Positions 27,933 through 52,665 of a stretch of 53,820 bases of DNA are shown piece by piece. Below the pieces are notes generated by a model. That model did not search any database, was not told where the DNA came from, and was given only the letters and a program-made list of their open reading frames with translations. Position 1 is the stretch's first letter. Each line of letters starts with the position of its first letter. The DNA is taken from contig JADFZZ010000034.1 of the NCBI GenBank assembly GCA_015232315.1, forward strand, positions 1 to 53,820, in the 5' to 3' direction. A program made the position numbers and the translations under genes. This DNA is from SAR324 cluster bacterium (GTDB taxonomy: Bacteria > SAR324 > NAC60-12).

Positions 27933-29324
27933 TCAGGAAATCGCCTGAATTTCTTCTCCGTGAGTGACTGTTTCAGGACGGTATAGCGATTTCAAAATCC
28001 CGCCGATAAACAAAATCACACCAAACACTGTGATCAATCCACCAAGGCCCATCAAGGTCATACCGGCGATTTTTTGCCAATGATCCAGTCCTTGAGCCGC
28101 ACCAGGAACTTTTCTGGCAACTCCGTGAGATCCAGCCCAGAACATGCCGGTTACAAAAAAAGCACCGCCCAATCCGCAGAGAACCGGTTGCCAGCGTAAA
28201 AAACGCCAGGTCAATTTCCGTCCATTCAGGAATGGGAGCAACTCAAAACTGGCTCCCATGAAGGCGATGGTCACAGCACCTATCACCCCATGATAATGTG
28301 CTGGAATGGTTGTATTGCTGGAATCAATCATTGTCCCGACGATGCCGCCATAACCAAACAGTCCCATCGAAATGAGCACTGAAAGCAGGCGAGGATCCCC
28401 CCAGGGCGTTTCATTCCGTCGATTCCAGAGCAGGCGGGTGATACCCGCGGCGGTCAAAATGACACTGCCCCCTAAGCCCCATCGCATGAGAAATGTGAAA
28501 GCGTTGGTCAGTTCAGGAGTCCCGGTGTCCCAAATGAAATAGAAGAACGGACCTGGAAGAGCAAACAGGGGAATCAATCCCAATAATCCATAAATCAAAA
28601 AATCCGGAAGAATGGTCTGCTGGTAAATCCGATGGATCAGAAAAATCCAGCAAGATAGCATGGCCAGTGTATTGACCGCCTGAAGGAGGTGTCCTCCGCC
28701 CCAGAATACAGTTTCAAACGCATTGAGCGAGTGAGACAGGGGGGCCATTTGATAATATGCCAGTCCAATGCAGCAAAGAGCCAAAATGAAAGTGATTCCG
28801 GCGCAACGTGTACCGAACGCGAAAAAAGGCTCAAGCGGCACACAATTCTGTTTTTTCATCAGAAATGGCAGACTCACACTCAAGGCCGCGCCAGAAAAAA
28901 ACAGAAACAAGGCTGTGAAAAACAAGGGATGATCGAGTACAGGTACATAATTTGACATGATGGGTGTTCCTTCACCAATAAAGGGAACCATAACCATCAG
29001 CAAGGTACCCACAACCTGAAGCGTCAAGCCTGACTGACCCACCCTTTTGATCAGAGTCTGAGGGCCTGTTTTTAATTGAAAACTGAGCACATACAACAGA
29101 CTGATAAACGCCAGAAACCAGATGACAATCGCCAGGTTCACGTGTATGACCAAGGCCACATAAAAGAAATTTTTATTTCCCATCAATTCATGGAACCATG
29201 GTGTTCTGGCACCTGCGGCAAACAAGGCAAACATTTCCGCAAATACAATGGTGAAGATGGCAAGAGACAACCAGTTTCTGGCTAAACGGATCTGCTCCGG
29301 ATGAAGAGATTGATCATGTTTCAT
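27933..29324 (-). CDS. heme-copper-oxidase-like subunit I membrane protein without the CuB HH pair
   Basis: 463 residues with about 12 hydrophobic helices. His residues typical of the superfamily: H61 in helix II (VIHVNLAIVIW, cbb3-like), H212 in WGGGHLLQ (helix VI CuB ligand position), and H343/H345 in AHYHGVIGAV (high- and low-spin heme ligands in helix X); H400 follows in GSHGVA. No adjacent His-His pair appears in the helix VII region (LFALPGPFFYFIW). No subunit II or III gene is nearby. It could be a divergent oxidase or NO-reductase-like protein, or a heme-binding sensor. Probably a single-gene transcript; a perfect palindrome lies about 95 bp upstream. Confidence 0.75.
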   Translation of the reverse strand: MKHDQSLHPEQIRLARNWLSLAIFTIVFAEMFALFAAGARTPWFHELMGNKNFFYVALVIHVNLAIVIWFLAFISLLYVLSFQLKTGPQTLIKRVGQSGLTLQVVGTLLMVMVPFIGEGTPIMSNYVPVLDHPLFFTALFLFFSGAALSVSLPFLMKKQNCVPLEPFFAFGTRCAGITFILALCCIGLAYYQMAPLSHSLNAFETVFWGGGHLLQAVNTLAMLSCWIFLIHRIYQQTILPDFLIYGLLGLIPLFALPGPFFYFIWDTGTPELTNAFTFLMRWGLGGSVILTAAGITRLLWNRRNETPWGDPRLLSVLISMGLFGYGGIVGTMIDSSNTTIPAHYHGVIGAVTIAFMGASFELLPFLNGRKLTWRFLRWQPVLCGLGGAFFVTGMFWAGSHGVARKVPGAAQGLDHWQKIAGMTLMGLGGLITVFGVILFIGGILKSLYRPETVTHGEEIQAIS

Positions 29325-29755: not shown

Positions 29756-32700
29756 ATGATTAAAATCTCAAAATTAATGATGCTGTTGATTTCTATGCTC
29801 TTTGTGGGTTGTCAACAACAATATTCAGGAAAAATCCCACCCAGAGCCATCAATGGCGTGCTGGATTTATCCGGTTGGAATTTTGAGAAAGACGGACCTG
29901 TTAATCTGGATGGCGAATGGGAATTTTATTGGAAGAAATTGCTGGAAGAACAAAATTTTGAGGCTGAAGAGTTACCCCGGAAAACAGGTTTGATAACGAT
30001 TCCTTCGGTTTGGAACAATGGTGCGATGGATGGAATAAAGCTGGGTCCAGATGGATATGCCACGTTCAAACTGGAAATCAAAAATCTGGCTGGTGATGGC
30101 GTAATGGCTTTAAAAATTCCGGAAATGGGAAATGCCTATCAGCTCTGGATCAATCAGAAAAAACTGGCCTCAAACGGAGTGGTTGGCACCAGTAAAGAAG
30201 CGATGATTCCATTATGGTTACCTCAGGTCGTAGCCTTCAATGTTCATGCAACATCTCATCAGTTGATTCTTCATGTTTCCAACTATGTTCATCGACATGG
30301 CGGCATTAAAAAGAGTTTGATCCTTGGAGAAAACCAGCAGATTCAAAACATCCGGGAGAGAAGGGTGTCATTGGAACTGTTCCTGTTTGGAAGCCTGTTA
30401 ATCATGGGCCTGTATCATCTGGGGCTGGATGCCCTCAGAAGAAAAGATCCTTCTGCGTTATATTTTGGATTCTTCTGTCTCCTGGTGGCCGTCCGTATTC
30501 TGACATCTGGAGAGCGACTTCTTGTGTTCTATTTTGAGCCACCATGGGAACTCACCATGAAGCTGGACTCTCTCGGGTTTTATTTGGCTGTGCCCATATT
30601 CAATTTATTCATCTACTCGCTCTTTCCCGGAGAATTCTGGAAGCCGTTTGTTAAAATCTCACTGGTTTTGGGGGGATTGTTCAGTTTGGTCGTTCTGTTG
30701 ACTCCAGCGAATATATACACCACCTATACCCTTGTTCCCTATCAGGTCATTGCTTTAATCCATATGGGGTATGGATTCTATGTGTTGGGGCAGGCTGTTT
30801 TCAGAAAAAGGGAGGGATCGCTATTGTTTCTCCTGGGATGCCTCATTCTGTTTTTCGCCATGATCAATGATATTTTATATGGGCGAATGATGCTCCACAC
30901 CGGCGATTGGATGCCCGTTGCCCAGTTTCTCTTTATCTTCTGTCAATCCCTTGTGCTCTTCAAACGGTTCTCCAAAGCGTTTACCGTTTCAGAAGAATTA
31001 TCAGAAAAACTGGAACAAAAAGTGGCCGAACGTACCGATGAACTCCATCAGTCACTTCAGATCACTCAGCGAAAAGAACAGGAAATCACTCATATCAATC
31101 AGGTCGTTCAGGTGATAAATTCCACACTGGAACTGGATAAAGTCATGGAATCCATCATGGACGCCTTACATGAGATTTTTCAATTCAGTGCTATTAGTAT
31201 CCAATTGGTGAATGAGGCGGAAAACCGTTTGGATATTTACAGCGTTTATGGGGAAGGTGTGAGCGAAGATGATATCAAAAAATGGAGAGGACTACACATT
31301 TCTTTAACAGAAGATAGCATTTCCAATTATGTGTTAAAGTCAATGGAACCGTCTTATTTTCCTGACGTGACACCTGAATTGCCCATGACTGCGGTTGACA
31401 GGAAAATCTACGAAGTAAAGCCTTTCAGTTCATATTTAGCTCATCCTCTGGTCGTGCACAATAAAGCCATCGGAGTTCTGTGTTTCTTCAGTATGACGAA
31501 ACATTTCGATTTAGAAGACGAGGACATCCTCAAAATCCAGCGTTATGTCACTCAGATTGCAACATCGATCAATAACGCCCGACTGTACGAAGATTTGAAA
31601 ACCTCCCAGATGCAAATCCTGGTGAGCAACAAAAAGCTGGAAGAACTGGATAATGCCAGAGAACAATTTTTGAAGAAAATGAATATTCTGGATGAGAAAT
31701 ATTTTCCCTCCATCAAAGAAAAATTGAACAATCTGTTGACTGGTGCAGAATCCAACAGCAAGGAACTTGTGCGTCAGGCTGTCCGGGATATGCATTCCAT
31801 TGATGAAGCCTTATTACCCTTCAGGTCATTGTTCATCACCGAACAGGCGATCCAGAGCAAGCAGGTTTTATTGGCAGAAACCAACAAAAAACAGCAGATC
31901 ATTGCCCAAATGGCTTTGGGCGGCACAGGGGTGGAACTGGATATTGTTTCCGACATGGAGCAGGGACTACGTTGTCTTGATGAAAAGAAGTATGACATTA
32001 TTTGCAGTAATTCGGAGTTGGTTGAACTCACCCGTCATGCGGTTGAAAAATTTCCTGATATTAAATCAGTGTTCATGACCTCTGAAGATGCCACAAACTA
32101 CCTGCCTCTATTAAAAAAATATCCCTTTTTATCCAATATTGTTTCACAGAACGAAGAAGATCGAACCTTTACCCTCAAAAACATTTCAACCACGATCAGT
32201 AAATTGATCACGAACGATCTGTTTGGACTGGAAAAATACTTGAATTGGGGGGTTGATGTTCATCAAAAGTCCATTGGCAACAGTGAGGTTCGAACTGAGT
32301 TGGTTGATGAAATGGAACAATACTTTACGAAACTGGGCGTGCGTCGCCCCATTCTAAAAAAATGTTCGATGGTTGTTGAAGAATTGTTGATGAACGCGAT
32401 CTATGACGCACCTGTGGATGCGGAGGGAAAATCCCTGTATAATCATTTGCCACGCACCGAAAAACTGGAATTAAAACCGGAAGAACAGGCAACCTTCCGT
32501 TATGCCTGTGATGGACTTTTATTAGCCGTTTCAGTGGAAGACCCTTTTGGCGCCTTTCATCGAGAAACGATTCTTAAATACCTGGCCAGTTGTTACGAGG
32601 GCAGAGAGGGCACGCTACAACAAAACAAGGGGGGCGCAGGTCGTGGACTCTTTCAAATCATCGAAACGTCCGACCTGGTTGTGTTTAATGTCAAACCCAA

Positions 32701-32791
32701 AGTTCGTACTGAAGTGGTTGTTATTTTCAATATTGATCCCAATAAACCCAAAAGTGCCAAAACCACTTCGTTCCATTATTTTTATGGATGA
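29756..32791 (+). CDS. 7TMR-DISM/GAF lipoprotein sensor with pseudo-receiver and serine-kinase-like ATPase
   Basis: 1011 residues. Lipoprotein signal with lipobox LFVGC (C19). Extracytoplasmic 7TMR-DISMED2-like beta domain about 35-200, seven membrane helices about 205-410, coiled coil 410-450, GAF domain about 455-615, helical linker, then a receiver-like domain about 710-820 in which the phosphoacceptor Asp is N752 (YDIICSNS). The C-terminal ATPase (about 840-1011) is HATPase_c_2/RsbW-like (VVEELLMNAIYD and GGAGRGLFQII) without a HisKA His. Output may therefore be Ser/Thr phosphorylation of an anti-sigma partner or a non-kinase switch. Heads the signalling island; separated from the B12 gene by a 304-bp repeat-bearing gap. 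Confidence 0.85.
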   Translation: MIKISKLMMLLISMLFVGCQQQYSGKIPPRAINGVLDLSGWNFEKDGPVNLDGEWEFYWKKLLEEQNFEAEELPRKTGLITIPSVWNNGAMDGIKLGPDGYATFKLEIKNLAGDGVMALKIPEMGNAYQLWINQKKLASNGVVGTSKEAMIPLWLPQVVAFNVHATSHQLILHVSNYVHRHGGIKKSLILGENQQIQNIRERRVSLELFLFGSLLIMGLYHLGLDALRRKDPSALYFGFFCLLVAVRILTSGERLLVFYFEPPWELTMKLDSLGFYLAVPIFNLFIYSLFPGEFWKPFVKISLVLGGLFSLVVLLTPANIYTTYTLVPYQVIALIHMGYGFYVLGQAVFRKREGSLLFLLGCLILFFAMINDILYGRMMLHTGDWMPVAQFLFIFCQSLVLFKRFSKAFTVSEELSEKLEQKVAERTDELHQSLQITQRKEQEITHINQVVQVINSTLELDKVMESIMDALHEIFQFSAISIQLVNEAENRLDIYSVYGEGVSEDDIKKWRGLHISLTEDSISNYVLKSMEPSYFPDVTPELPMTAVDRKIYEVKPFSSYLAHPLVVHNKAIGVLCFFSMTKHFDLEDEDILKIQRYVTQIATSINNARLYEDLKTSQMQILVSNKKLEELDNAREQFLKKMNILDEKYFPSIKEKLNNLLTGAESNSKELVRQAVRDMHSIDEALLPFRSLFITEQAIQSKQVLLAETNKKQQIIAQMALGGTGVELDIVSDMEQGLRCLDEKKYDIICSNSELVELTRHAVEKFPDIKSVFMTSEDATNYLPLLKKYPFLSNIVSQNEEDRTFTLKNISTTISKLITNDLFGLEKYLNWGVDVHQKSIGNSEVRTELVDEMEQYFTKLGVRRPILKKCSMVVEELLMNAIYDAPVDAEGKSLYNHLPRTEKLELKPEEQATFRYACDGLLLAVSVEDPFGAFHRETILKYLASCYEGREGTLQQNKGGAGRGLFQIIETSDLVVFNVKPKVRTEVVVIFNIDPNKPKSAKTTSFHYFYG

Positions 32792-33095: not shown

Positions 33096-33734
33096 ATGAC
33101 GACTACAGAAGAACAGTATAACAATTATCTTTCTTTTCTACTTTCAGGCAACAAAACTGAATGCACAAAGATTATCAGGGAACTGATTGATCAGAAAATC
33201 GCTGTTAAAGATTTATATCTTAATTTTTTTCAGAGATCCATGTACCAGGTGGGCAGTCTGTGGGAGCATAACAAAATTTCTGTTGCGGTTGAACACATGG
33301 CGACCGCCATGACTGAAAGCCTGTTGAATTTGGCATATCCGTTGATATTTTCCGCGGAGCATTGTGGCAAAAGTGCCATCATCAGTTGTGTCACCAAAGA
33401 GTATCATCAAATTGGCGCGAAAATGGTCGCGGATATTTTTGAATTGAATGGATGGGATGGATACTTTGTGGGAGCCAATACGCCTACCGAAGAACTCCTG
33501 AAAATGATTGATGAAAAGAACCCTGATATGCTGGCGCTCTCCATGAGTCTTTATTTCAGTTTAGGGTGGATGGAGGAAATGCTTCAGGCTGTATCCGCGA
33601 CATATCCAAAGTTGGATATCATTGTGGGTGGGCAGGGTTTTTTATGGGGAGGACTGGATACGCTCAATAAATATCCTCAAGTGGAATATGTGGATTCCAT
33701 TATCAAATTGGAACAATTAATTAAAAAGGGATAA
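33096..33734 (+). CDS. stand-alone B12-binding protein with CarH-type light-sensor motifs
   Basis: 212 residues. N-terminal four-helix B12-cap domain (about 5-90) with W56 followed by nine residues and E66-H67, the Wx9EH motif that covers adenosylcobalamin in CarH/LitR photoreceptors. Rossmann-type B12 domain (about 92-212) with lower-ligand His H104 in KEYHQIG (ExHxxG), SMSL and IVGGQGF. There is no MerR DNA-binding domain and no methyltransferase partner. Output is probably by contact with the PAS kinase, whose gene starts 1 bp after this stop. It may also be a general corrinoid sensor. AGGAGTG precedes the start. Confidence 0.85.
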   Translation: MTTTEEQYNNYLSFLLSGNKTECTKIIRELIDQKIAVKDLYLNFFQRSMYQVGSLWEHNKISVAVEHMATAMTESLLNLAYPLIFSAEHCGKSAIISCVTKEYHQIGAKMVADIFELNGWDGYFVGANTPTEELLKMIDEKNPDMLALSMSLYFSLGWMEEMLQAVSATYPKLDIIVGGQGFLWGGLDTLNKYPQVEYVDSIIKLEQLIKKG

Positions 33735-33735
33735 C

Positions 33736-35742
33736 ATGATTCCCGGGATGAAGACTCAGCTTATTTATCAATATGTCGATCAGAAAGCCGCGATTTTTTT
33801 GCTTTCACTGGATCACCAGGGGGAAATTCTGACCGCAAACGCTTATGCCAGGGAACTGGTCGGGCCGGAGTTAATGTCCAAATACATGAATTTGTATGAA
33901 GTGCTGATTGATTTTGGTCAGCTACCGACATTAAAGGAACTTCTGGAAACCGGGGAAACTCCAAGAATGTTGAATGTGAAAACCGCAAACGGTTTGCCTC
34001 AAACCCTTTATTTGAATTTCCATGAGCAAGTGGATGAAATCATTGTCCTTGGACAATTGGATAAAGATGAAGTGGAAAGTCTGCGCATGAATCTGTTAGA
34101 CGCGAACAATGAAGCCAACAATTTGTCGAGAGAACTGCAGAAAAAAAATGTCCAGTTAACCAAGCTCAATGACTTAAAAAATCAGTTTCTGGGAATGGCG
34201 GCTCATGATTTGCGAAATCCAATCGGCATCATTCAGCAATACAGCGAGTTTTTACTGGATGAAACAAAAAATTTATTGGAAGAAGGCCACCGGGATTTGT
34301 TGTCCAGAATGAAAACTTCCAGCCGTTTTATGCTGAATCTGTTGAATGATCTCCTGGATATTTCCCAGATTGAATCAGGTAAACTGGAATTGAAGTTTGA
34401 AACAATCGATATGAGCGAGTTGATCAAACGGAATATTTCGATAAACCAGGTGCTGGCCACCCCAAAAGGAATCAAACTTTCCTTTCAACCTCCTGAAAGA
34501 CTGCCTCAACTTGAGGTTGATCCGGAAAAAATAGAACAGGTGCTCAATAATCTGTTGTCGAATGCCATCAAGTATTCTGCGGCTCAAACCACCGTTCAAA
34601 TCAACGTGTTTCAAAGTGAAGATCGTTTAGTAGTCGCCATTCTTAATCAGGGAAAGGGGATTCCTCAAGAGGAGATTCCAAAACTGTTTCAACCCTTTCA
34701 AACCACCAGCGTGAAAAGCACCGCCGGTGAAAAAAGTACGGGGTTGGGACTGCATATTGTTCAGAAAATAATATCCGGACATCAAGGGAAAATATGGGTT
34801 GAGAGTCAATTGGGTTCTGACAGTAATTTAGGCAGGACTACTTTTTTCTTCAATCTTCCGATTCCGGAAAAAGAATTAGAAAAAATCAGATTGGTTGATG
34901 CTGAAAAGAGCGCATTCTCTTCACAAACAGATTCAAACATTGCCAGCAAATATCCCATGAAAATTCTGGTGGTAGACGATGATCCAGATCAACTCCAATC
35001 CATGTATTTAATGCTGAAACAATCAGGTTACACTGCTAAGTTGGTTCACAATAATCATGAAATGCTGGAAGCCTTGAACAGAAAATACTATCAGCTTGTA
35101 TTCCAGGATATCAACATTCCGGATATCGACGGGATAACCGCTACCCGTCATATCAAACAGCACTTCTCCGGGAAAAAATCACCCAAAATTGTGGCCATTA
35201 CCGGAGGCCCTAAAACCAAAGAAGAATGTCTTCAGGCTGGAATGGATCATTTTCTCAAAAAGCCTGTCAGTCAGGAAGATATTAAAGCGGTCATTGCCCA
35301 AATGTGGGAAGAACTCTATTCTACACAGGCATTTACCGAAACCGGAAATGAGGATCAGAGGACTTCTGACGTTGTCTCAGAAATGTCCTTTCCCCATGAA
35401 TTTCTGAATGAACACACGATCCATGAATATAAATCTATTGATCCTGGATTTTTTAACGAGCTCATTGATACGTTTTTGGAACAGACACCTCAATTACTCA
35501 ATGATTTGCATCAATTCATTGAACATCAGGATACAGATAAGTTTGTTCAAAGCGCAGAACATTTTCGAGGATCAAGTTCCAGCATAGGTGCAGAGCCGTT
35601 GGCTCAGTTGTGCACTCAAATGATCGAAAATCAAACTTCTGGGGACAAACAATCGGTACAAGATTTTCTGCATCAACTGGAAACCCTGTTTGACCAAACC
35701 AGAAAAAGTTTGCTATCGTTGAAGCAGCAGGATGGTGTTTAG
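33736..35742 (+). CDS. PAS-type hybrid histidine kinase with receiver and HPt-like domain
   Basis: 668 residues, soluble. PAS-like region about 15-115, coiled coil 116-145, HisKA with H157 (MAAHDLRNPIG), HATPase (NNLLSNAIKYS, GKGIPQEEI, STGLGLHIV), receiver about 412-530 with D458 (FQDINIPDIDG), and an HPt-like helical bundle about 560-660. In the HPt motif AEHFRGSSSSIGA the His (H609) is one residue closer to the Gly than in the standard AHxLKGSS pattern. Start codon follows the B12-protein stop by one base, so the two are translationally coupled; the B12 protein is the likely sensory input, since the kinase has no recognised chromophore domain of its own. Confidence 0.9.
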   Translation: MIPGMKTQLIYQYVDQKAAIFLLSLDHQGEILTANAYARELVGPELMSKYMNLYEVLIDFGQLPTLKELLETGETPRMLNVKTANGLPQTLYLNFHEQVDEIIVLGQLDKDEVESLRMNLLDANNEANNLSRELQKKNVQLTKLNDLKNQFLGMAAHDLRNPIGIIQQYSEFLLDETKNLLEEGHRDLLSRMKTSSRFMLNLLNDLLDISQIESGKLELKFETIDMSELIKRNISINQVLATPKGIKLSFQPPERLPQLEVDPEKIEQVLNNLLSNAIKYSAAQTTVQINVFQSEDRLVVAILNQGKGIPQEEIPKLFQPFQTTSVKSTAGEKSTGLGLHIVQKIISGHQGKIWVESQLGSDSNLGRTTFFFNLPIPEKELEKIRLVDAEKSAFSSQTDSNIASKYPMKILVVDDDPDQLQSMYLMLKQSGYTAKLVHNNHEMLEALNRKYYQLVFQDINIPDIDGITATRHIKQHFSGKKSPKIVAITGGPKTKEECLQAGMDHFLKKPVSQEDIKAVIAQMWEELYSTQAFTETGNEDQRTSDVVSEMSFPHEFLNEHTIHEYKSIDPGFFNELIDTFLEQTPQLLNDLHQFIEHQDTDKFVQSAEHFRGSSSSIGAEPLAQLCTQMIENQTSGDKQSVQDFLHQLETLFDQTRKSLLSLKQQDGV

Positions 35743-35781
35743 TTCCAGAGTGCAGTCATTTCACAATCTGAAGAGGTTCTT

Positions 35782-37053
35782 ATGGTAACATTGATGGATC
35801 AGTTAAAAAATGAAACCAGATCTTCCCATGAACGTATTGAACAGTTTCCCTATTTCAAGGCCCTAGCTGAGGGAAATCTGGAACTGGACAGTTATATCGC
35901 GCACCTTCGAGCATTGGCAGTGATTCATGGTGTTCTGGAAGATGAGGTCATGAAAACCAATGACCCTGTGCTGGGATCGGTCTGGAGTGAAAAATTGAGT
36001 AAATTTCACTTGCTGACCCAGGATCTTCGTGATTTGGATCATGAATATTTTCCAGACATTCCTGTCGTAGTGGATGCTTCTGTGGAATTGACCAGGAAAA
36101 TCCGGTTACGGCGTCTGAGTGATCCCATGAGTTTATTGGGATACATTTATGTGCTTGAAGGTTCAACCCTTGGCGGAGCAATTTTGAAGAAACACATTGT
36201 AGGAACATTCGGATTTCAAAATGATCAGGGCTTGTCTTATTTTGCCCAGTATGGAAATGAAAAACTCAAGCATTGGAATCTATTCAAACAGCAAATGAAT
36301 TCACTGCATCTTCAGGAAGAGGAACATGCCCGTATTCTGAAAGCGGCCAATGAATTGTTTGAGGGGCTAATGCCCATTTTTGAAGGGTTGCATCCCATCA
36401 CGAAAAAAATATCGTTTTATAATGTAACCAGTTTGAATCCGGAAAGCGGAAATCAGCCTATTCCTGAAGACCCCCAGGAAATCAGCGCGGCCCTGCGTGC
36501 CGGTAAAATCACATGGAAACAGTTTCCCTATTATGAATATCGGTATTCAACCCGGGGAGAGCAATATACCCGGAGCGACAGTTCATGGATCACAACACTG
36601 GTGCAATATCCTGTAGAACGCGTCAAACAGCAGATCCGATGGCTTGGAAGAGTTCTATCTACAAGGGGAATGCCACAATGTCTGTTGGAAACGCATTTAC
36701 AAAATATGTACAATGAGTTGGTCAAGGTGCATCCTGAAAAGAAAGATAAATATGCACTGCTCCTCGAAGGCGCGACAGAATTGCGTAAAATGCGGCAGAC
36801 TTGTTTTGACGATAAAACCATCGAAGAGCTTGCTGAACAATTTGAAATTCAAGCAGGAAACGAATGGGCCCGACGATTGAAACACATGGGCGTGTTGCTG
36901 GTCAATGCTGTTGCGGATGAAAAAGCTGGAATCACTGGCGCGGTTTCCAGTATTGAAGACTGGGCGACTGATCCGGATCGATTTCCTGAAATATTTATCT
37001 CCGCAGTCAAAAATACGATTAAGGAAGCAAAGAAGCGCGCAAAAAATGATTAA
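35782..37053 (+). CDS. heme oxygenase fused to an uncharacterised C-terminal domain
   Basis: 423 residues. Residues 1-205 are a bacterial BphO/HemO-like heme oxygenase: proximal His H16 (ETRSSHERIE) and distal-helix motif YVLEGSTLGGAILKKHI. This would release biliverdin, iron and CO. Residues about 230-423 form a second conserved-looking domain (FPYYEYRYSTRGEQYTRSDS, IRWLGRVLSTRGMP, LLETHLQNMY) that I recall as a separate protein in phytochrome-rich bacteria but cannot name. The gene follows the PAS kinase by 39 bp with AGAGG upstream. Placement beside a B12 light-sensor-like gene suggests tetrapyrrole or light signalling. No phytochrome gene is in the window. Confidence 0.87.
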   Translation: MVTLMDQLKNETRSSHERIEQFPYFKALAEGNLELDSYIAHLRALAVIHGVLEDEVMKTNDPVLGSVWSEKLSKFHLLTQDLRDLDHEYFPDIPVVVDASVELTRKIRLRRLSDPMSLLGYIYVLEGSTLGGAILKKHIVGTFGFQNDQGLSYFAQYGNEKLKHWNLFKQQMNSLHLQEEEHARILKAANELFEGLMPIFEGLHPITKKISFYNVTSLNPESGNQPIPEDPQEISAALRAGKITWKQFPYYEYRYSTRGEQYTRSDSSWITTLVQYPVERVKQQIRWLGRVLSTRGMPQCLLETHLQNMYNELVKVHPEKKDKYALLLEGATELRKMRQTCFDDKTIEELAEQFEIQAGNEWARRLKHMGVLLVNAVADEKAGITGAVSSIEDWATDPDRFPEIFISAVKNTIKEAKKRAKND

Positions 37054-37299: not shown

Positions 37300-39747
37300 A
37301 TGAATCACGAAATGATGGAAACGATCGATACGCCGAAAATACTCGTGGTCGATGATGAAGCTGATAATATAATTGCTTTGGAGCAAATTCTGAAAGATCT
37401 GAAGTTGTCCATTTTCAAGGCCGATTCCGGAAAAGACGCAGTCAACCTCGCAAAATCCCATGAATTTGCCATCATCATTATGGATGTCCATATGGCTGGA
37501 ATTGATGGTTTCAAAGCTGCCGAACTAATCCGCTATTTTGGAAAATCCCAAAAATCGCCCATTATTTTTCTGACCGCCTCCGCAATTCGGGAAAATCAGA
37601 TTTTCAGAGGATATGACGTGGGTGCCGTGGATTATTTATTCAAACCGCCATCGCCGTATATTCTTAAGAGCAAGGTGAAAATCTTTGTCGAGTTGTATCA
37701 GCAAAAGTTACTGATTGAGATTCAGCGAAAAAATTTGGAACGTTCTTTAGAGGTGCAGAAGCAAGTCTCTGAAGAATTAAAAATCGCTCAGCAACAGGCG
37801 GAAATTGCTCGACAGAATTCGGAATCCGCCAATCAGGCCAAATCCACTTTTCTAGCCAGTATGAGTCACGAAATTCGAACGCCCATGAATGGCATCATTG
37901 GTATGACAGGCCTCCTGTTAAAAACCGGGCTGACATCCAAACAACGTGAATTCGCTGAAATGGTCCGTGTCAGTGGTGTGCATCTGCTGAACCTCATCAA
38001 TGACATCCTGGATTTTTCCAAGATTGAAGCCGGGAAAATGGAACTGGAAAAGCAACCTTTTGATCTGAGAAACTGTGTGGCGGATGCTATGGAGGTGCTG
38101 GCGATTAAAACCGCGGAAAAAGGGATTGAATTGACAAGTTACATTGAACCCGATGTTCCTTCGTTCATTGAGGGGGATGTCACCCGTTTGAGACAAATCC
38201 TGGTCAATTTGATCGGCAATGCCGCAAAATTCACAGAAAGAGGTGAAATACTGGTTTCTGTAAGTCTGGAAAAACAAAACCCTGACAATGTCGAACTCAA
38301 GTTTGCTGTCAAAGATACTGGAATCGGAATTCCTGAAGACAAGCTGGATCAATTATTTGCCGCTTTTAGCCAGATCGATGCCTCCACAACCCGCAAATTT
38401 GGCGGTACAGGGTTGGGCTTATCGATTTCTCGAAGATTGGTGTCATTCATGGGAGGAAACATCCGGGTTGAAAGTAAACTCAACGAAGGAAGCACTTTCT
38501 TGTTTACAATAAAAGCACACATTGCTCAGGAACAACCAGCTCCATACCTGAAGCCCAGGAATCATGAACTCGAAGGAAAACATGTTTTAGTTGTGGACGA
38601 CAATGCGACAAACCTTCGCATTTTACAATTGCAGTGCGAACATTGGGGGATGACAACTGAGTCCACTACTTTTCCCAAAGAAGCATTGGCGTGGATAAAA
38701 AGCGGAAAAAAATATGACATCGCCATTCTTGATTATAATATGCCTGAAATGGATGGCGTACAGCTTGGTGAAAATATTCGAACCTTTGTTTCCATGGAAA
38801 ACATGCCCATGGTTTTGTTTTCATCCTCAGACCAACTTGAGCAAATTGAAGACTCCGTACTAAAAAATATTTTCAACGCACAACGCACAAAACCTGTTCG
38901 TATTTCAGCGCTATTTGACTGTTTAACCGGCATATTGATCAAGCAGAAACCTTCGTTGCCAGAAAAAAATCAAAATGATTCCAGCAAACTTTCTCATGAA
39001 ATGCCCTTACGCATTCTGGTGGCAGAAGACAATGAAATCAATCAAGTTCTGTTGATCAGCCTACTGGAATCATTCGGCTATGTTCCTGTTGTGGTATCCA
39101 ACGGGATAGAAGCATTAGAGGCGTTGGCACAGCAAGATTATGACTTGATTTTAATGGATGTGCAGATGCCGAAAATGGATGGATTTGAGACCACCCGGAA
39201 GATTCACCAGACACTCCCCAAGGAAAAAAGACCCAGGATCATTGCGGTAACAGCCAATGCACAACAGGAAGATCGGGAAAAATGCCTTGTCATCGGCATG
39301 GATGATTATATCAGAAAACCCATTATCGAAGAGGAACTCATCTCAGTTTTGAAACAATGGGGAAACCCGGTTTCTCAGCGAAAGGCCCGTGATTCCCTGC
39401 AGAAATTTGAGGCTGCGCCTGTTCTCGATAATAGCGTGTTTTCAGGCTACAAACGTCCTCTTCAGAAGAGACTGATAGATATATTTTTGAATAGTGTTCC
39501 AACATCCCTCGAGAAGCTCCAACATTACATTGAAAACCGGGATTTTCTGCAGATCCATGACGAAGCACACTTTCTCAAAGGAAGTTGCCTGGGAATTGGC
39601 GCAAATCGAATGGCACAAATCTGTAAAGTCCTACAGCAGAATGCTGAACTTCAGGAAATGGCTAACGCTGAGAACTTTCTGTTACAACTCAAAGAAAATT
39701 TTGAAATGGTTCAGCAGGAATTTCACTTGATAACCAATCAGGAATAA
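37300..39747 (+). CDS. REC-histidine kinase-REC-REC-HPt phosphorelay protein
   Basis: 815 residues, soluble. Receiver-1 about 10-130 with D62 ([12 protein letters not shown]), coiled coil to 175, HisKA with H190 ([11 protein letters not shown]), HATPase ([22 protein letters not shown]), receiver-2 about 425-545 with D478 ([11 protein letters not shown]), receiver-3 about 565-685 with D620 ([11 protein letters not shown]), HPt about 715-815 with H757 ([13 protein letters not shown], canonical). All phosphotransfer residues are present, so a complete relay could run within one chain. No sensory domain; receiver-1 may take phosphate from an upstream kinase, for example the PAS kinase. Nothing recognisable lies between its stop and the fructosamine kinase start. 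Confidence 0.93.
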
Positions 39748-43718: not shown

Positions 43719-46700
43719 TCACTTGTCCTCAAAACTGGTCACACCTTGCCAGTCTGAAACAACCCCGACCTGCTGATAATGTTGGCAGCGTTTCAGATGA
43801 ATACCAGCGCAACGGTCTTCAGGAACCTGAATCAGGTAATCCTCATACAATTTTGCGGCCTCGATAAACCGGCCGGACTCATACAGACTCCGTGCCTCTT
43901 CAAAGCTTGATAGATTCAGAGTTTTACGATCCCGCAATTCCTGATGATCCGCATCAAACACTTCATACACCGCCGTGGGTTTTTCCTTTCCTTTGAACTG
44001 AACACGATCAATGAGCCTGATACGATATATTTCGGGTTGTGGTAACTGGAGAAGGGTGTCTTCGCTCATCAACAGCGGAACACCATAGGTTTTGGTCAGG
44101 CCTTCCAGTCGTGATGCGCTATTCACAGCATCGCTGATCACTGTGCCATCCATCCGGTTCTTGCTGCCGATGGTTCCCAGCATCAAATCGCCAGTGTTGA
44201 TGCCGATACCGATTTTGATTCCGCTATAACCCGATTCCCGGCGGACTTCATTGTAGATTTCAAGTCGTTGTAACATCTGTATTCCTGCATCCACAGCATT
44301 TTGAGCGTTTCCTGAAAACAACGCCATGATGGCATCACCGATGTACTTGTCGATGAAACCACCGTTGCTTGTGATCACAGGTTCCATCTGGCTGAGATAG
44401 GCATTGATGAACCGGAAGGTATCACGGGGCGTCATGGTTTCAGAAAGTGTGGTGAAGGAGCGGATGTCAGAAAAAAGAATGCTCATGTTTTCCATCACGT
44501 TGTCTCCCAGACGGACGTCCACGATGCTGTCTTTGTGCAGATGTTCCAGAAATTTATGCGGCACAAACCGGTTAAAAGCGTTGCTTGTGCGTGACAGTGA
44601 CAGATGGGTGCTGATGCGGGCCAGCAATTCTTCCCGATTGAAAGGCTTGATCAGATAATCATTGGCTCCGTCTTTTAAGCCCTGCAACAAATCATTGATC
44701 TGACTTTTTGCCGTGAGCATGATCACCGGCAATTCGGTGGCTGAGTAATCCTGTCTTAATTTCTGACACACTTCATAGCCACTCATCCGGGGCATCATGA
44801 GATCCAGCAGGATCAGATCCGGACGCTCTTTTTCCATCAACTCCAAAGCATGGATACCATCATTTGCCTGTATCACATGATAGTTGCTGGCACTCAGGTA
44901 GTTGTTCAATACCTGGAGATTTACCGGTTCATCATCCACAATCATGATCGAACCCACGGCATTTTTGGGAGAAATGGACCTGGTTACAGAATATCCGGAA
45001 TTCTCGCGGGATTGTGCCTGGGTGTCCGTATCGAAGGAATTCCTGATACGTGATAATTCAAGAAGGGCATCCCGTGTTTTTGCGGATTCCTGTGATTCCC
45101 GCATGTCAGAAATTTCGAGGTCAAAGGTAAACGTCGTGCCAATTCCAAGTGTGCTTGAAACTTCAATCGTCCCGCCGTGCAATTCCACCAATTTCCGGGT
45201 GATTGCCAACCCAAGGCCCGTTCCTCCATATTCACGGGATACAGAGCCATCGGCCTGTTCAAAGGAATGAAAAATCACTTCCAGTTTTTCTGAAGCAATC
45301 CCGATTCCTGTATCGGTAATGCTGATTCTGGCACGTCCATCCCGTTGTTCCGCATGCAGGGTGATTTCGCCCTGATGGGTGAATTTCAGGGCATTGCCCA
45401 GAAGATTCAGCAAAATTTGCTGTAACCGGTTTTCATCTGCCATTAAAAACGGAAAATCGGGTGGAATCTGATTGAGGATGAGGACCGATTTATTCCGCAT
45501 CAGGGGTTTCATGAGCATCTGAATCATGGTCAACATGCTGAAAAGATCGACCGGTTGCAGTTTCAATTCAAGATCATGATGGCGCATTTTGGAGAAATCG
45601 AGAATATCATTGATCAGGTTGCTCAAGCGTTTGCCGCTGGTAACAATCATTTCCAGATTTTCCCGAACCTGCTCAGAAATTCGTCCTGCGGTTCCTTCAA
45701 GCAGTGAATCCGCAATGCCGATAATGCCATTCAGGGGGGTTCTCAATTCATGCGAGGTATTGGCCAGAAATTCATCCTTCATGGCATTGGCCTGCTTGAG
45801 CGCGAATTCTGATTCTTTTCTGGGGGTGATATCTCTCAGGCCAACAACCCTGACAGGTTTTCCCTGATAGATCTGGGCACTGACCACAATTTCAGCATAA
45901 AAAGTCGTTTTGTTTTTCCTGATCCCTAAAAGTTCATAGGAGCTATCTGTATCAGTATACATTTTATTGCGGGCGATTTCCTGAAACTTGGGGTGAATGA
46001 GTTCAATCACGGTCATTCCCTTGAATTCCTCCAGTTTATAGCCCAGCAATTTGGCACTGCCGGGATTGGCTTCAAGCACCACCCCTTTTTCATGAATCAG
46101 GATTCCGTCAAAGGCCGTATCAATCAGTCGTCGGAAGCGTTCCTCATTTTCTTTGGTTGCCTGGCGGGCCATTTGTTCCTGTTTCAGCAATGCCGCCTGC
46201 GTCTTGTCATTTTCCTGTTTGATGACGCTGATTCGATCAGCAAGTGCCAGTGACAGCAAGACGACTTCCAGCATGGAGCCAATCTGAATGCCATATTCTG
46301 TGACGAAATTATGTGGTAGCAACCCGAAATTTTTCAGAATCGTCAAAGCGATACCGATCAACAGAGAAGTCCAGGCGATCATGAAATAACGGGCAGGTCG
46401 GTATTGACGGAACAGACAGAGGATTCCATTGATTAAAATAACAGCAGAGGTCAACAGTGCGGTCAACACCAGCGGACGGATGATCAGTTCGTAGGGCAGT
46501 GTCAATGATAGAATCAACTCAACCGCAAGAAGCCCCATGAGTCCGATGGAAATTTTATTGAGGTTTGGCGTAAAACGGGCTGATTGCAGGAAGGATCTTG
46601 AAAACTGGAGCATCCAGAACCAGGTGAAACATAAAAAGAAAGGGAAACTGTGATTCCCCCACCAGATCTGCTCAGGCCATAAATATTGAAAGGCCAGACC

Positions 46701-47417
46701 GTTATAAATGCCCTGGAGCAAGGCATAGCCCATGATATAAAGCACATAGAATAAATAGTTCCGGTCCTTGACCGTCAGGAACACAAACAGATTGTAGACA
46801 ATCATCACAATCATGCTTCCATAATAGATTCCAAGTGCCAACTGCTCACGACTGACTTTTTCGGCAAGTCCTTTGGCGCTTCGGAGATTCAGTTCAATAT
46901 TGACCGAACCTGTCGTTTTGAACCGCATGTAGTAATCTTTCTGCTTACCTGAAGGAACCTTGAGAGAGAAAATAAAATCACGGTGAGAAATATCCCGCAT
47001 ATAAAACGGGTAATGATCTCCGGTTTTACGTACATCGACATCGCCATACCCTGACAATGTGTAGAGTTCAATGGAGTCAATGAGAGGGTATCCATTTTCG
47101 AGAAAGAGTTCCATGTCATGGGCACCCGTGTTGATGATGGAAAATCGCACCCAATGAGCCGCACTGGCAAAACCGAAACCGGGTGAATCGGTCGAGGACG
47201 GCTGGAATTTTTCTGTCAACTCAGGAAATTTGAGAAACTTCTGGATGGTTTCACTGTGGTCAGGATCTACCAGAATATCCAGCGATTTTCCCATGGACTG
47301 ACTGACAAAATCTTCATTCACCCTGACGGGTTCAGCGGCCTGAACCCATGGGCTTATCCACAACACAAAGGCTAACAACCACCCTGCCTGTTTCAGTCGG
47401 GATTTTACTAAATTCAT
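43719..47417 (-). CDS. 7TMR-DISM sensor kinase fused to receiver and adenylate cyclase
   Basis: 1232 residues. Signal peptide 1-27, 7TMR-DISMED2-like extracytoplasmic domain about 30-180, seven-helix membrane domain about 190-400, coiled coil, PAS about 432-545, HisKA with H556 (NTSHELRTPLNG), HATPase (NLLGNALKF, DTGIG, GGTGLGLA), receiver about 845-965 with D872 (LLDLMMPRMSG), class III cyclase about 975-1150 with [21 protein letters not shown] (Lys fits ATP) and DAVNSASRLE, then a helical repeat tail (ARSLYESGRFIEAAKLYEDYL) like that in the receiver-cyclase-PilZ protein. An integral-membrane route from an extracellular ligand to cAMP within one chain. Monocistronic. Confidence 0.93.
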   Translation of the reverse strand: MNLVKSRLKQAGWLLAFVLWISPWVQAAEPVRVNEDFVSQSMGKSLDILVDPDHSETIQKFLKFPELTEKFQPSSTDSPGFGFASAAHWVRFSIINTGAHDMELFLENGYPLIDSIELYTLSGYGDVDVRKTGDHYPFYMRDISHRDFIFSLKVPSGKQKDYYMRFKTTGSVNIELNLRSAKGLAEKVSREQLALGIYYGSMIVMIVYNLFVFLTVKDRNYLFYVLYIMGYALLQGIYNGLAFQYLWPEQIWWGNHSFPFFLCFTWFWMLQFSRSFLQSARFTPNLNKISIGLMGLLAVELILSLTLPYELIIRPLVLTALLTSAVILINGILCLFRQYRPARYFMIAWTSLLIGIALTILKNFGLLPHNFVTEYGIQIGSMLEVVLLSLALADRISVIKQENDKTQAALLKQEQMARQATKENEERFRRLIDTAFDGILIHEKGVVLEANPGSAKLLGYKLEEFKGMTVIELIHPKFQEIARNKMYTDTDSSYELLGIRKNKTTFYAEIVVSAQIYQGKPVRVVGLRDITPRKESEFALKQANAMKDEFLANTSHELRTPLNGIIGIADSLLEGTAGRISEQVRENLEMIVTSGKRLSNLINDILDFSKMRHHDLELKLQPVDLFSMLTMIQMLMKPLMRNKSVLILNQIPPDFPFLMADENRLQQILLNLLGNALKFTHQGEITLHAEQRDGRARISITDTGIGIASEKLEVIFHSFEQADGSVSREYGGTGLGLAITRKLVELHGGTIEVSSTLGIGTTFTFDLEISDMRESQESAKTRDALLELSRIRNSFDTDTQAQSRENSGYSVTRSISPKNAVGSIMIVDDEPVNLQVLNNYLSASNYHVIQANDGIHALELMEKERPDLILLDLMMPRMSGYEVCQKLRQDYSATELPVIMLTAKSQINDLLQGLKDGANDYLIKPFNREELLARISTHLSLSRTSNAFNRFVPHKFLEHLHKDSIVDVRLGDNVMENMSILFSDIRSFTTLSETMTPRDTFRFINAYLSQMEPVITSNGGFIDKYIGDAIMALFSGNAQNAVDAGIQMLQRLEIYNEVRRESGYSGIKIGIGINTGDLMLGTIGSKNRMDGTVISDAVNSASRLEGLTKTYGVPLLMSEDTLLQLPQPEIYRIRLIDRVQFKGKEKPTAVYEVFDADHQELRDRKTLNLSSFEEARSLYESGRFIEAAKLYEDYLIQVPEDRCAGIHLKRCQHYQQVGVVSDWQGVTSFEDK

Positions 47418-47756
47418 AGATCCTCGTTCTTAAAAAAAAGATTTCAGTATTTGCTGAGTTGGTCTGCTGAGCAGACGCAAGGAGTTCATCACCTATTAGT
47501 GAAATTACAGGTCGTATAACATACTCACCCCTGAAACGCATTACAAAAAACAGCGAAGGCTTTTTGAATGATGACCTATGGCACAATCGATACGATGCGT
47601 TTCATTCTTGAAAAAATAATTATAATTTCTTGGATTCCACTGTTGACATTTCAATTATAAATTGATTACAAGCGATATAAGCATGTTGTGTGCTATCAAA
47701 ATTGCGGATTGTGTAGTCTGCAATTATTCATGAATGTCGTTAAAATGGGGAGATGT
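47418..47756. other. divergent promoter region between the kinase-cyclase and the porin-like gene
   Basis: 339 bp, AT-rich, between two divergent genes. TATAAT occurs at 47621 and TTGACA at 47643, but neither has a well-spaced partner, so no promoter is called. No open frame with a start site was found. Confidence 0.5.
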
Positions 47757-49457
47757 ATGATAATAAAAAAACTGTTTTATACCGCGGTGGCTTCGATGCT
47801 GTGTGGGGGAACACTCTTGGCTCAGGAAGCACCAAAAAAGACAGAGGCTACTTTGATCACCAAAGGCTCTGTCAATGCTTATGCCAAAATGCAGGACAAT
47901 TATATCACTCCTCTTGATCTCGGATCAGGAGACCGTCATGGCGCCAATAACCGCTCCAATCAGACATCCCGTGCCACCGGCAATCTGACGTTCATCACGA
48001 CCAGCGGCAGTGTCGGTGAATCAGACGGAAGAAATATTCCGCAGATGGTGGGTGTGGCCGTCATTAAAATGGATGCCAATGATCCGGATCATCCCTCAAC
48101 AATTCCAACCGCGACATCCGGTGAAGCCAGTGCCGGAGGAAAAAATGACACCCGTGTTTACCTGGGCGATGTCTGGGCACGTTATTCACCATGGCTACCA
48201 TTGGGCATCAAGATTGGATACCAGTCGTTTGCGTCAACTTCTGTGGCCGCGGGTACCAAGGTGTATGACGGCGATGCTGAAGACGACTTTCAGGCATTTC
48301 GTGGTGCGACCACACTCAAGGAAGTTCCTGGAATCAGCCTTGATTTTCACCCTATGAAAGAGATGGAAATCGGGATCGCTACCACCAGCGGAATGGGCGA
48401 TGCCTCCAAAATCATGACAGGTGGCAAAGCGAATGAAGCCTCCAACAATGTGGTTTGGGTCAACGGAAAATTCAGTATGGTCAAATTTGATGTCGGGATG
48501 CAGCAGGTTGCCGTTGGCAAATATACCTCGGGTGAAAATGCACCTTATGAATATGCCCATACCTACAAGCACACACTCATCAATGCTTCCGTCATGATGG
48601 ATTTCGGAATGGTCAAACCCTATGTGGGATACCAGTCCGCAAGTGGTGACAAAGCAAGAGCCATTGTGACCGCAGGTACGCTGGACGCACTTCCCGGTCA
48701 ACTCAGGGCAGGTCTCGGAGCCAGTGTGGATAGTGCCGTTAAAGCCGGTTATAAAACTCTGCTGGTTGCCGCTGGTATGAGTTCCACCAAGGCCGATGAA
48801 TTCATTGCCGCAGATTCAGCTTTTTCTGAGGCCGCGATCACTGCCGCTCTGGAAGCTGATGGAAAAAGTGCTGCGTTAGCCGCCGCTTCCGCGAATGCAA
48901 TTTACAATAATGCCGCGGCCGCAAGTCTGAAAGATGTGACCCCCAGTGCCGCTGTTTCCGCCAATACTACAGCCCAGTTGAGCTCAACCGGTATCGGTAA
49001 TTTCAAGAACCTTGAAGTGTCCGCCAATGAAGATCTGGCTTTTGAAGGAAATATCATCACAGCCGGATTGATTCTGGACTTCAATGACAATGGTGCTTTA
49101 GGAATCGATTACACCATGATCAACGCTCCGGCTTATGGCGAAAGCGGATACATGCCTGCTTTGCTTGAAGTCAAAACAGCACTGATGACCAACTACACCA
49201 TTCCTCTCAAGGAAGGCGCTTCCGTAACCTTGTTCTATCATATGCTGGGAATCCAGGAAGACAGCAAACTGCGCAGTGATCTTGATACCGCGGCAAAAAA
49301 CGCGGCTCAAGCTGATGACGCCGCGACAGTGGCCGCCCTGGGAACCTCCACTTCCGGTGCGGTTAAAGGTGGCTATGAATCATTTGTTAATGCCGCTGGA
49401 CGTTTGAAATGGTCCAATACCGCATCCATGGGCGTGGCATTCAATGTCAAATTCTAA
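47757..49457 (+). CDS. porin-like outer membrane protein with Ala-rich insertion
   Basis: 566 residues from the ATG at 47757, chosen for GGGGAG 5 bases upstream and the signal peptide that follows (MIIKKLFYTAVASMLCGGTLLAQ). Alternating beta strands with aromatic ends (VYLGDVWARYSPWLPLGIKIGYQ, VKPYVGYQSASG) suggest a barrel, and the chain ends MGVAFNVKF with a terminal Phe typical of barrel proteins. Residues about 305-405 are an Ala-rich, predicted helical insertion between strands, unusual for a porin. Solute unknown. Followed 115 bp later by the large lipoprotein gene. Confidence 0.78.
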   Translation: MIIKKLFYTAVASMLCGGTLLAQEAPKKTEATLITKGSVNAYAKMQDNYITPLDLGSGDRHGANNRSNQTSRATGNLTFITTSGSVGESDGRNIPQMVGVAVIKMDANDPDHPSTIPTATSGEASAGGKNDTRVYLGDVWARYSPWLPLGIKIGYQSFASTSVAAGTKVYDGDAEDDFQAFRGATTLKEVPGISLDFHPMKEMEIGIATTSGMGDASKIMTGGKANEASNNVVWVNGKFSMVKFDVGMQQVAVGKYTSGENAPYEYAHTYKHTLINASVMMDFGMVKPYVGYQSASGDKARAIVTAGTLDALPGQLRAGLGASVDSAVKAGYKTLLVAAGMSSTKADEFIAADSAFSEAAITAALEADGKSAALAAASANAIYNNAAAASLKDVTPSAAVSANTTAQLSSTGIGNFKNLEVSANEDLAFEGNIITAGLILDFNDNGALGIDYTMINAPAYGESGYMPALLEVKTALMTNYTIPLKEGASVTLFYHMLGIQEDSKLRSDLDTAAKNAAQADDAATVAALGTSTSGAVKGGYESFVNAAGRLKWSNTASMGVAFNVKF

Positions 49458-52500: not shown

Positions 52501-52665
52501 ACCACTACCACAAGTTGTACTGATTCCGGAAGTGTGCTTGGAACAACCGGTGCTACAACTTATACCATAACCCCCAATTATGGTGGGCAGGACGGATATC
52601 TGTTAGTATATAACGGAACAACGGCCAGCATCACAGGCACTGCTACATTGACCAAAAATTTCTAG
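49573..52665 (+). CDS. large Ser/Thr-rich surface lipoprotein with internal duplication
   Basis: 1030 residues. Lipoprotein signal peptide with lipobox VTAGC (C28). Nearly all-beta, Ser/Thr/Ala-rich composition. Residues about 343-694 and 695-1030 are two tandem copies of a roughly 340-residue unit (markers: ITGKALG / INGKPLG, FYKVTLTPSAG / FYKLTLTPSSG, VSGPAVTT / VSGPALTT, KLKHITV / TLKHINV, then a terminal subdomain). Shorter N-terminal segments (about 35-340) recall PPC-like beta domains. No catalytic motif recognised. AAGGAG precedes the start. Probably exposed on the cell surface or periplasmic side of the outer membrane. Confidence 0.8.
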   Translation: MNKHSLKYYLNRFLVIGSAIGLIVTAGCSPEEKSIPVSSITVNASATSANDIRSFKFDGQAGKSYMYELSGSSATAGFYSNPEQSRSLGTTLSADKTGTYYLGVQADGSYSVRVVRALTGGDTLENQSLSKGKTMRYPLSTTLNKTILVSLTPKLLAADTTATGTASLFICTDMARTNCSSSVTNAAGRQTIRYVGVMTGTAYLFIDAATSADIVYNLSVSNPTALISGAATAEMTLEPRDQILYSFSTTKNTVYSVTLTQIKTTTKAGVSGSIRKNDGTSVVSSFTPAQTGANIISSTFLADETTTHVIALNNTDDVETATYTVKYQEIPASVSAFTAEAPITGKALGANGAWIHTLAVSAGTFYKVTLTPSAGSAASFTQTGSSNFTMNDSSKAYFTQSMVFLANSTETRYFTVAAGTGGLTYSLSVSTITPETALTVGTQSAEISIAEGDVKIYPVSVTAGLPTLVEQTSVSGPAVTTAALLGDWPAMYQGALEATSSTSPYLSSGNLYAYTGTQVPIVGTVTSGGSTATVASATVYSGFKLASSSGTGYIALYRPLTTSNNTSADKIKLKHITVNSPVALTVDATATAATIGAGEINMYSFTMTHAGQTATTYNSYTATVSSASTSQIQSGVHAGGDGSYAVSAYDTEGDSSLSITPTYDGQKGMLVVRNSSTASATASVGVAKSSTAVTINGKPLGPSETVSGSLTYGSSATHALTLLAPGFYKLTLTPSSGNVGSWSASTLTTLVTMTDAADASSYYTQSKVVIATTAFTSTITVTAASTVAGLSYSLSATPITPESFLTPGTASGNISVGDGDVKVFPVYMNKGLPSTVMITKTTVSGPALTTFTPASLISTTVTAGIPGNTGIAALYNALGKTQGQSGALAASDSTYYYVATRPVTKTPNTTADVFTLKHINVTSSGTLSTTATNITVAAGAMNLYTFSTTQQTPPTAQGTYSLAVTGASLNTGVKLCTTTTSCTDSGSVLGTTGATTYTITPNYGGQDGYLLVYNGTTASITGTATLTKNF

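Follow-up and report, generated by a model that had tools for sequence, protein, structure and literature searches.

An operon in a SAR324 cluster bacterium probably encodes a split photocobilin that works as a two-component system, in which the adenosylcobalamin (AdoCbl) switch and the bilin antenna would reside in separate proteins, signaling would run through a kinase, and the antenna would make its own biliverdin. The operon lies in the window, the stretch of 53,820 nucleotides that was analyzed, in which the gene order is B12 protein, hybrid histidine kinase, heme oxygenase-photoglobin fusion (HO-PG), and second hybrid kinase (HK2); all features of the window described here are on the + strand. 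The first three open reading frames (33096..33734, 33736..35742, and 35782-37053) were found where an earlier note on this DNA had placed them, with gaps of 1 bp and then 39 bp. HK2 (37300..39747; REC-HisKA-HATPase-REC-REC-Hpt) has homologues directly behind the photoglobin gene in three related loci (L009, L010, and L015), so it is possibly part of the module. Promoter and terminator scans gave counts no higher than those in shuffled sequence, and PADLOC returned no match.

The B12 protein and its neighboring kinase

The stand-alone sensor protein of AdoCbl type (212 aa) holds B12 domains only, a helical cap (PF02607, residues 11-78) and a Rossmann B12 domain (PF02310, residues 94-182), as found with Pfam. 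Both motifs that had been read from it are present: Wx9EH, with W56 and E66-H67 (33261..33296), and E102-x-H104-xx-G107 (33399..33416), in which His104 is the predicted lower axial cobalt ligand. In an alignment of 77 rows, made up of the window protein, the window's own duplicate (L007), and 75 relatives, W56 and H67 are each conserved in 77/77 and E66 in 76/77. E102, H104, and G107 are conserved in 77/77 each, but the use of short exact peptides to fetch the related loci has in part selected for conserved residues around H104 (residues 97-116); W56, E66, and H67 lie outside every peptide used.

These near-invariant motifs agree with the claim that this B12 protein is of the light-sensor type, and so do its best solved matches, which are photocobilins (8J2W, 8J2X, and 8J2Y; E = 7e-19 for 8J2W and 8J2X). 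CarH and LitR, to which the protein had been compared, are thus not the closest systems. They share the AdoCbl-binding cap and ligand motifs, but the window protein has no MerR DNA-binding domain, and it probably acts on a kinase in trans. From the SignatureFinder signature of light-responsive B12 proteins (PMC11796333), GxxW (G53-W56), EH (E66-H67), and GxxxP (G126-P130) are present, whereas the GxxH element reads K101-x-x-H104 in the window; in the family this first position is mostly N and the H is invariant. In CarH and in photocobilins, Wx9EH touches the adenosyl group (PMC10979010), and proven B12 photoreceptors combine Wx9EH with the ExH ligand (PMC10979010, PMC11796333). We give almost no credence to the idea that the protein is instead the corrinoid protein of a methyltransferase system: its weak matches to MtgC/MtaC-type models reach at most 39.5 bits against cutoffs of at least 215, no methyltransferase is present among the neighbor genes examined, and the W-x9-EH cap motif is retained in 76/77 rows.

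The adjacent kinase has the Pfam architecture HisKA-HATPase-REC-Hpt and is a hybrid kinase, as had been claimed. The PAS domain that was also claimed did not hold up, since no Pfam PAS is found in the first 155 aa and the relatives give only weak, sub-cutoff PAS_8 matches, so that the N terminus is PAS-like at best. This PAS-like domain with its helical linker (residues 1-147; 33736..34176) is likely the receiver of the sensor signal. In Desulfotignum, the same PAS-like module is fused to GGDEF rather than to a kinase beside the B12 gene (L033, 9636-10625), and kinase and GGDEF are thus swapped on one PAS-like module among relatives. Measurements have shown a photocobilin to control a GGDEF enzyme in trans (PMC10979010).

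The heme oxygenase fusion and its photoglobin-like domain

The third gene encodes a heme oxygenase fusion, in agreement with the earlier note. Its heme oxygenase domain (residues 1-205; 35782..36396) matches PF01126 with an E value of 8e-28 over residues 4-201 and is followed by about 218 aa without a Pfam match. Proximal His16 and distal G127xxxG131 are invariant in 12/12 proteins, and from fold and motifs this N-terminal half is predicted to be a heme oxygenase that converts heme to biliverdin. Heme oxygenase chemistry depends on both O2 and heme.

The C-terminal half (HOC; 36397..37053) is all helical (AF2 pLDDT, 90.6), and profile comparison indicates homology with photoglobin, the globin that binds biliverdin in photocobilins. 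In hhalign, the HOC profile matched the photoglobins of fused globin-B12 proteins at 91.9% (P = 6.9e-7), compared with at most 1.6% for 100 column shuffles, 0.1% for the reversed profile, and 0.9% for the heme oxygenase domain. A photoglobin HMM finds the HO-PG proteins of L029, L038, and L068 at 3e-7 to 5e-7; the copy in the window itself escapes a plain HMMER search with the photoglobin model. Foldseek gave photocobilin 8J2W the top probability among the matches listed (0.77), at E values for HOC that are not significant, so the homology of HOC rests on the family profile. The direct match to the stand-alone photoglobin profile is weak (4.3%, P = 0.009), and the link thus passes via the photoglobins of the fused proteins. 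Two residues that are invariant in 12/12 proteins, D61 (36577..36579) and W82 (36640..36642), align with Asp270 and Trp296 of SasPcob, of which the former contacts biliverdin and the latter packs on its D ring (PMC10979010). HOC gave no significant match to a known Pfam or PDB sequence family, profile controls for a duplicated heme oxygenase or B12 cap helix bundle were negative, and a plasmid search for the heme oxygenase C terminus returned no match.

The earlier note had overlooked this globin, and its proposal of a light, B12, or tetrapyrrole-status pathway, supported in part, now becomes a specific model, the split photocobilin. Here the B12 protein would bind AdoCbl and act as the primary light switch, with light breaking the Co-C bond and altering the protein's shape or assembly. 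The heme oxygenase domain would open heme to biliverdin, which would be held by the photoglobin domain on the same chain. The globin would dock in trans on the B12 protein in the manner known from fused photocobilins and would add red-light sensitivity. The complex would then control the adjacent kinase through the PAS-like N terminus and helical linker, and the signal would exit through the REC and Hpt domains. More tentatively, we suggest that this is a modular, two-chromophore two-component system whose separate antenna protein is a heme oxygenase making its own chromophore. Such an antenna would need no outside source of bilin to mature and, given the O2 requirement of heme oxygenase, might be sensitive to red light only when oxygen is present.

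Conservation of the module and pigment supply

Across 75 related loci from many phyla, a kinase usually adjoins the B12 gene, and the co-conservation expected from the earlier note was thus found. A stand-alone photoglobin is near the B12 gene in 41/75 loci and an HO-PG fusion in 11/75, which also bears out the proposed link to heme oxygenase. Together, a photoglobin domain, free or fused, occurs within 5 kb of the B12 gene in 52/75 loci; the other 23, some of them on short contigs, have no photoglobin within that distance. Photoglobin open reading frames were near a B12 gene in 52 cases versus 1 far from it (Fisher p = 1e-15), and the B12-photoglobin-kinase branch is present in about ten phyla. 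L009 and L010 have the order B12-HK-PG-HK2 (PG, photoglobin). In SAR324 relatives, a stand-alone globin occupies the slot that HO-PG holds in the window, and the window's genome has no free photoglobin. The B12 proteins linked to HO-PG are scattered on the B12 tree, where strongly supported branches force at least four changes.

It could be argued that HO-PG degrades heme and binds the product in its second domain, as a bilin carrier or sink, and that it has no more than a transcript in common with the B12-kinase pair. In two related SAR324 genomes (G028 and G029), the B12 gene indeed has no HO-PG next to it on the contigs examined, and the slot is taken by a free photoglobin. We consider this explanation very unlikely, given the repeated adjacency in several phyla, the exchange of PG and HO-PG, and the correlation of B12 and HO-PG distances (r = 0.84), although linked genes share history. 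Four HO-PG genes of Desulfobacterota were found without selecting for B12, and three of them adjoin a B12 gene and a kinase.

Pigment supply bears on two further explanations. Ten heme oxygenases were found among 49 genomes that carry the B12 protein, and every one of them is an HO-PG fusion; in the window's genome, HO-PG is the sole heme oxygenase found. Most genomes examined, including many with a stand-alone photoglobin, show no heme oxygenase, so in those genomes biliverdin does not suggest itself as the ligand. Provision of biliverdin to a phytochrome and bilin reduction were both rejected for the window's genome, whose assembly is 95% complete and contains neither a PHY domain nor a bilin reductase (PF05996). 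A PduO-type cobalamin adenosyltransferase is present.

The first of these explanations is a green-light-only system, in which the B12 protein alone would sense light via AdoCbl and control the kinase, with the globin structural or regulatory and carrying no functional bilin. AbDPcob, whose globin binds biliverdin poorly and which responds to green light at about 20% biliverdin occupancy (PMC10979010), seems to be partly such a case, and both the loci without a nearby photoglobin and the many genomes without heme oxygenase fit it. For this lineage we think it unlikely: the globin is fused to the only heme oxygenase found in the genome, and its Asp and Trp for biliverdin contact are invariant, both of which argue for bilin use. 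Alternatively, the set may report AdoCbl, heme, or O2 status to the kinase in the dark, with light incidental. The need of heme oxygenase for O2 and heme would suit such a role, as would the many relatives with free photoglobin and no heme oxygenase that belong to mostly anaerobic groups. The photoreceptor constellation of the B12 protein and the photoreceptor-type family of its partner globin speak against it, and we regard it as quite improbable.

Relation to known systems and implications

The proposed split photocobilin resembles the photocobilins, B12-globin fusion photoreceptors such as SasPcob and AbDPcob (PMC10979010; PDB 8J2W/8J2X/8J2Y), in its B12 domain with W-x9/10-EH and E/DxH, in a globin-like domain that has the Asp and Trp for contact with biliverdin, and presumably in control of a partner enzyme, which stand-alone photocobilins exert in trans. 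It differs in that B12 protein and globin are two polypeptides, that the globin is fused to heme oxygenase, and that the partner is a histidine kinase. On the Azospirillum plasmids of L102 and L103, the gene for a photoreceptor-type B12 protein is also followed directly by a kinase gene, but that B12 domain is fused to its globin, and a heme oxygenase fusion was not seen there.

The BBAG-2/pre-2 clusters of Myxococcales associate B12 protein, globin, and heme oxygenase (Rockwell et al. 2023, PMC10151467). As in the window, separate genes encode the B12-binding protein and the biliverdin-binding globin, generally with heme oxygenase in the genome, and both share an RGM stretch (RGMC in BBAG-2 and RGMP in the window). 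In those clusters the globin is free and a bilin reductase is included, whereas the window has heme oxygenase and globin in one protein, a kinase partner, and no PF05996 protein in its genome. The earlier view that the set has not been described as a unit therefore stands only in part. Fused photocobilins and the Myxococcales association are published; the searched passages of PMC10151467 and PMC10979010 do not mention an HO-photoglobin fusion or kinase partner. In the literature that our search covered, neither the heme oxygenase fusion nor the kinase module was reported.

With this module, the young field of B12-bilin photoreceptors gains a branch that is genetically split and linked to a kinase, and most hosts of this branch are not known as phototrophs. 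Stand-alone photoglobins in genomes without a detected heme oxygenase raise the question of which pigment they carry. The model also offers a testable role for photoglobin/BBAG-type globins, whose function a 2023 paper described as not yet known (PMC10151467). If it is correct, a single gene would encode a bilin holoprotein in which the chromophore-making enzyme and the domain that binds its product form one chain, a design of use in optogenetics.

The B12 protein and its gene neighborhood

Three genes on one strand of the window (33096-37053) are separated by gaps of 1 bp and then 39 bp, the same genes and gaps that the earlier note had read. The first encodes a 212-amino-acid B12 protein (33096-33734; PF02607 and PF02310 in Pfam), the second a 668-amino-acid hybrid kinase (33736-35742) with HisKA, HATPase, REC, and Hpt domains, and the third a 423-amino-acid fusion (35782-37053; HO-photoglobin), in which residues 1 to 205 are a heme oxygenase (HO) and the last 218 residues form a C-terminal domain with no match in the Pfam search. 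A second hybrid kinase gene (37300-39747) starts 246 bp after the HO-photoglobin gene. Directly 5' of the B12 gene (304-bp gap) lies the gene for a GAF-containing 7TMR-DISM membrane protein (29756-32791), whose conservation as a B12-gene neighbor was not seen. Elsewhere on the window, the minus strand encodes a 463-amino-acid COX1-family protein, heme-copper oxidase or NO-reductase-like (27933-29324), and one large sensor combining 7TMR-DISM, PAS, histidine kinase, receiver, and adenylate/guanylate cyclase domains (43719-47417); two long open reading frames (ORFs; 49573-52665, 1,030 amino acids, and 47688-49457, 589 amino acids) have no Pfam match.

The best solved relatives of the B12 protein are not CarH (E 3e-4, with a far lower score) but the photocobilins, fused B12-globin photoreceptors (8J2W and 8J2X, E 7e-19; also 8J2Y). 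Scanning 84,980 species genomes by short exact peptides yielded 75 related loci. In an alignment of 77 rows, W56 and H67 are invariant and E66 is present in 76, which bears out the Wx9EH cap motif proposed earlier. E102, H104, and G107 of the proposed ExHxxG ligand motif are also invariant, but the stretch around H104 was among the peptides used, so only the conservation of W56, E66, and H67 is unaffected by this choice of loci. Of the four elements of SignatureFinder, the published signature of light-responsive B12 domains, three are present; in place of GxxH, the window's protein has KxxH and the family mostly NxxH.

The heme oxygenase fusion

In the HO domain, all 12 family members have the proximal His16 and the distal GxxxG, as would fit an active enzyme. 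The C-terminal domain has the conserved stretches RYGxRG, SDxxW, and QxxWLGRVLxxRGMP, and its AlphaFold2 model is all helical (pLDDT 90.6). Foldseek against the PDB gave no significant E-value for this model; among the matches listed, the top probability was that of photocobilin 8J2W (0.77, E-value not significant), the next among other proteins was a plant hemoglobin (0.41), and neuroglobins were listed too. Reference photoglobin (biliverdin-binding globin) domains were cut from globin-B12 fusion proteins on plasmids of Azospirillum, Skermanella, Ilyobacter, Streptomyces, and Nonomuraea. In a profile comparison the C-terminal family matched them at 91.9% (P 6.9e-7, 84 columns); among the controls, column shuffles never exceeded 1.6%, the HO domain scored 0.9%, and the reversed profile and the B12 cap scored 0.1% each. 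According to passages of PMC10979010, biliverdin in the photocobilin SasPcob is contacted by Asp270 and Trp296. Because an Asp and a Trp in the plasmid photoglobins have the same 26-residue spacing, we infer from sequence that they correspond to this pair. In the profile alignment, the biliverdin-contact Asp and Trp fall on D61 and W82 of the C-terminal domain, each invariant in 12/12 members.

The module across related loci and genomes

With the photoglobin HMM used on the HO fusions, stand-alone photoglobin genes (~155 amino acids) were found adjoining the B12 gene. A model of this globin (pLDDT 93) matched globins and phycobiliproteins in Foldseek with probabilities up to 1.00 and E-values above 0.01. 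On B12 loci, 52 photoglobin ORFs are no more than 3 kb from the B12 gene, against 1 that is farther away (Fisher p 1e-15). A kinase-like ORF occurs within 600 bp of the B12 gene at about 67/75 loci, and 42 kinases can be aligned to the window's through its N-terminus. The neighborhood search suggested in the earlier note supports co-conservation of the B12-kinase pair. Within 5 kb of the B12 gene, HO-photoglobin is found at 11/75 loci and stand-alone photoglobin at 41/75.

L009 and L010, from SAR324 relatives, have their genes ordered as B12, kinase, photoglobin, and then a second kinase. The window has HO-photoglobin in the photoglobin slot, and its genome has no stand-alone photoglobin. On the B12-protein tree, HO-photoglobin loci are scattered and well-supported branches force at least four changes; row L007 of this tree represents the window and should not be scored as having none. 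The shared slot and this scatter are why the two globin forms seem to be interchangeable in the module.

Further arrangements were observed. Desulfotignum L033 (9636-10625), L027 (9645-10601), and further loci of that genus carry, directly 3' of the B12 gene, a gene that joins GGDEF (diguanylate cyclase) to the PAS-like module of the kinase. At L147 (6714-10045; G052, Desulfobulbaceae), a second, more distant B12 protein occurs together with HO-photoglobin and a kinase, and the same genome carries the B12-kinase pair of L011. At L144 (7413-10959), HO-photoglobin adjoins a 356-amino-acid B12-domain protein, followed by a kinase; photoglobin models did not match the ~145 residues preceding that B12 domain.

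Surveys independent of B12 selection found HO-photoglobin to be rare (3/52 SAR324, 2/388 Verrucomicrobiota, and 5/395 Desulfobacterota genomes). The three found in SAR324 coincide with the genomes whose B12 protein has 70% or higher identity to that of the window. Among Desulfobacterota copies not reached via the B12 protein, 3/4 have a B12 gene and a kinase next to them, and nearly all stand-alone photoglobin matches are fused to, or adjoin, a B12 domain. In 49 genomes with the B12 protein, 10 heme oxygenases were found, all coinciding with the 10 HO-photoglobins. One genome accounts for both the phytochrome domain (1/17 genomes) and the bilin reductase (1/21); the window's genome has neither, and a cobalamin adenosyltransferase is present in it. 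Absences are provisional, as most of these genomes were assembled from metagenomes. The stand-alone photoglobins beside the B12 gene at L059, L061, L064, L065, L067, L071, L072, L080, L081, and L082 have a DNHxNHxRF-type stretch. The searched genomes of these loci mostly have no heme oxygenase, and the ligand of these globins may be other than biliverdin.

A proposed photocobilin-like system in separate proteins

Photoglobins are reportedly known as a family, from Schneider et al. 2022. In the literature searched, we found nothing relevant on a B12-biliverdin-kinase combination or on a heme oxygenase domain fused to a bilin globin. To this extent the earlier suggestion of a pathway undescribed as a unit stands, but fused photocobilins are already known (Zhang et al. 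2024, PMC10979010) and so is the photoglobin family, and an association of B12 proteins, globins, and heme oxygenase in Myxococcales has been published (Rockwell et al. 2023). As PMC10979010 describes for the fused photocobilins, the globin lies over the corrin edge, biliverdin excitation triggers Co-C cleavage, and the light states control a GGDEF enzyme, also when mixed in trans. By analogy, the same mechanism would operate in the window's operon with a globin acting in trans; the attached heme oxygenase would make the biliverdin, and the kinase would be the output. The likely receiver of the signal is the kinase's PAS-like N-terminus with its linker, because L033 has the same module on GGDEF next to the B12 gene. 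Whereas a photocobilin is by definition one polypeptide, here B12 and globin are in separate proteins, and the HO-globin fusion and the kinase output are additional. The system should work like a photocobilin.
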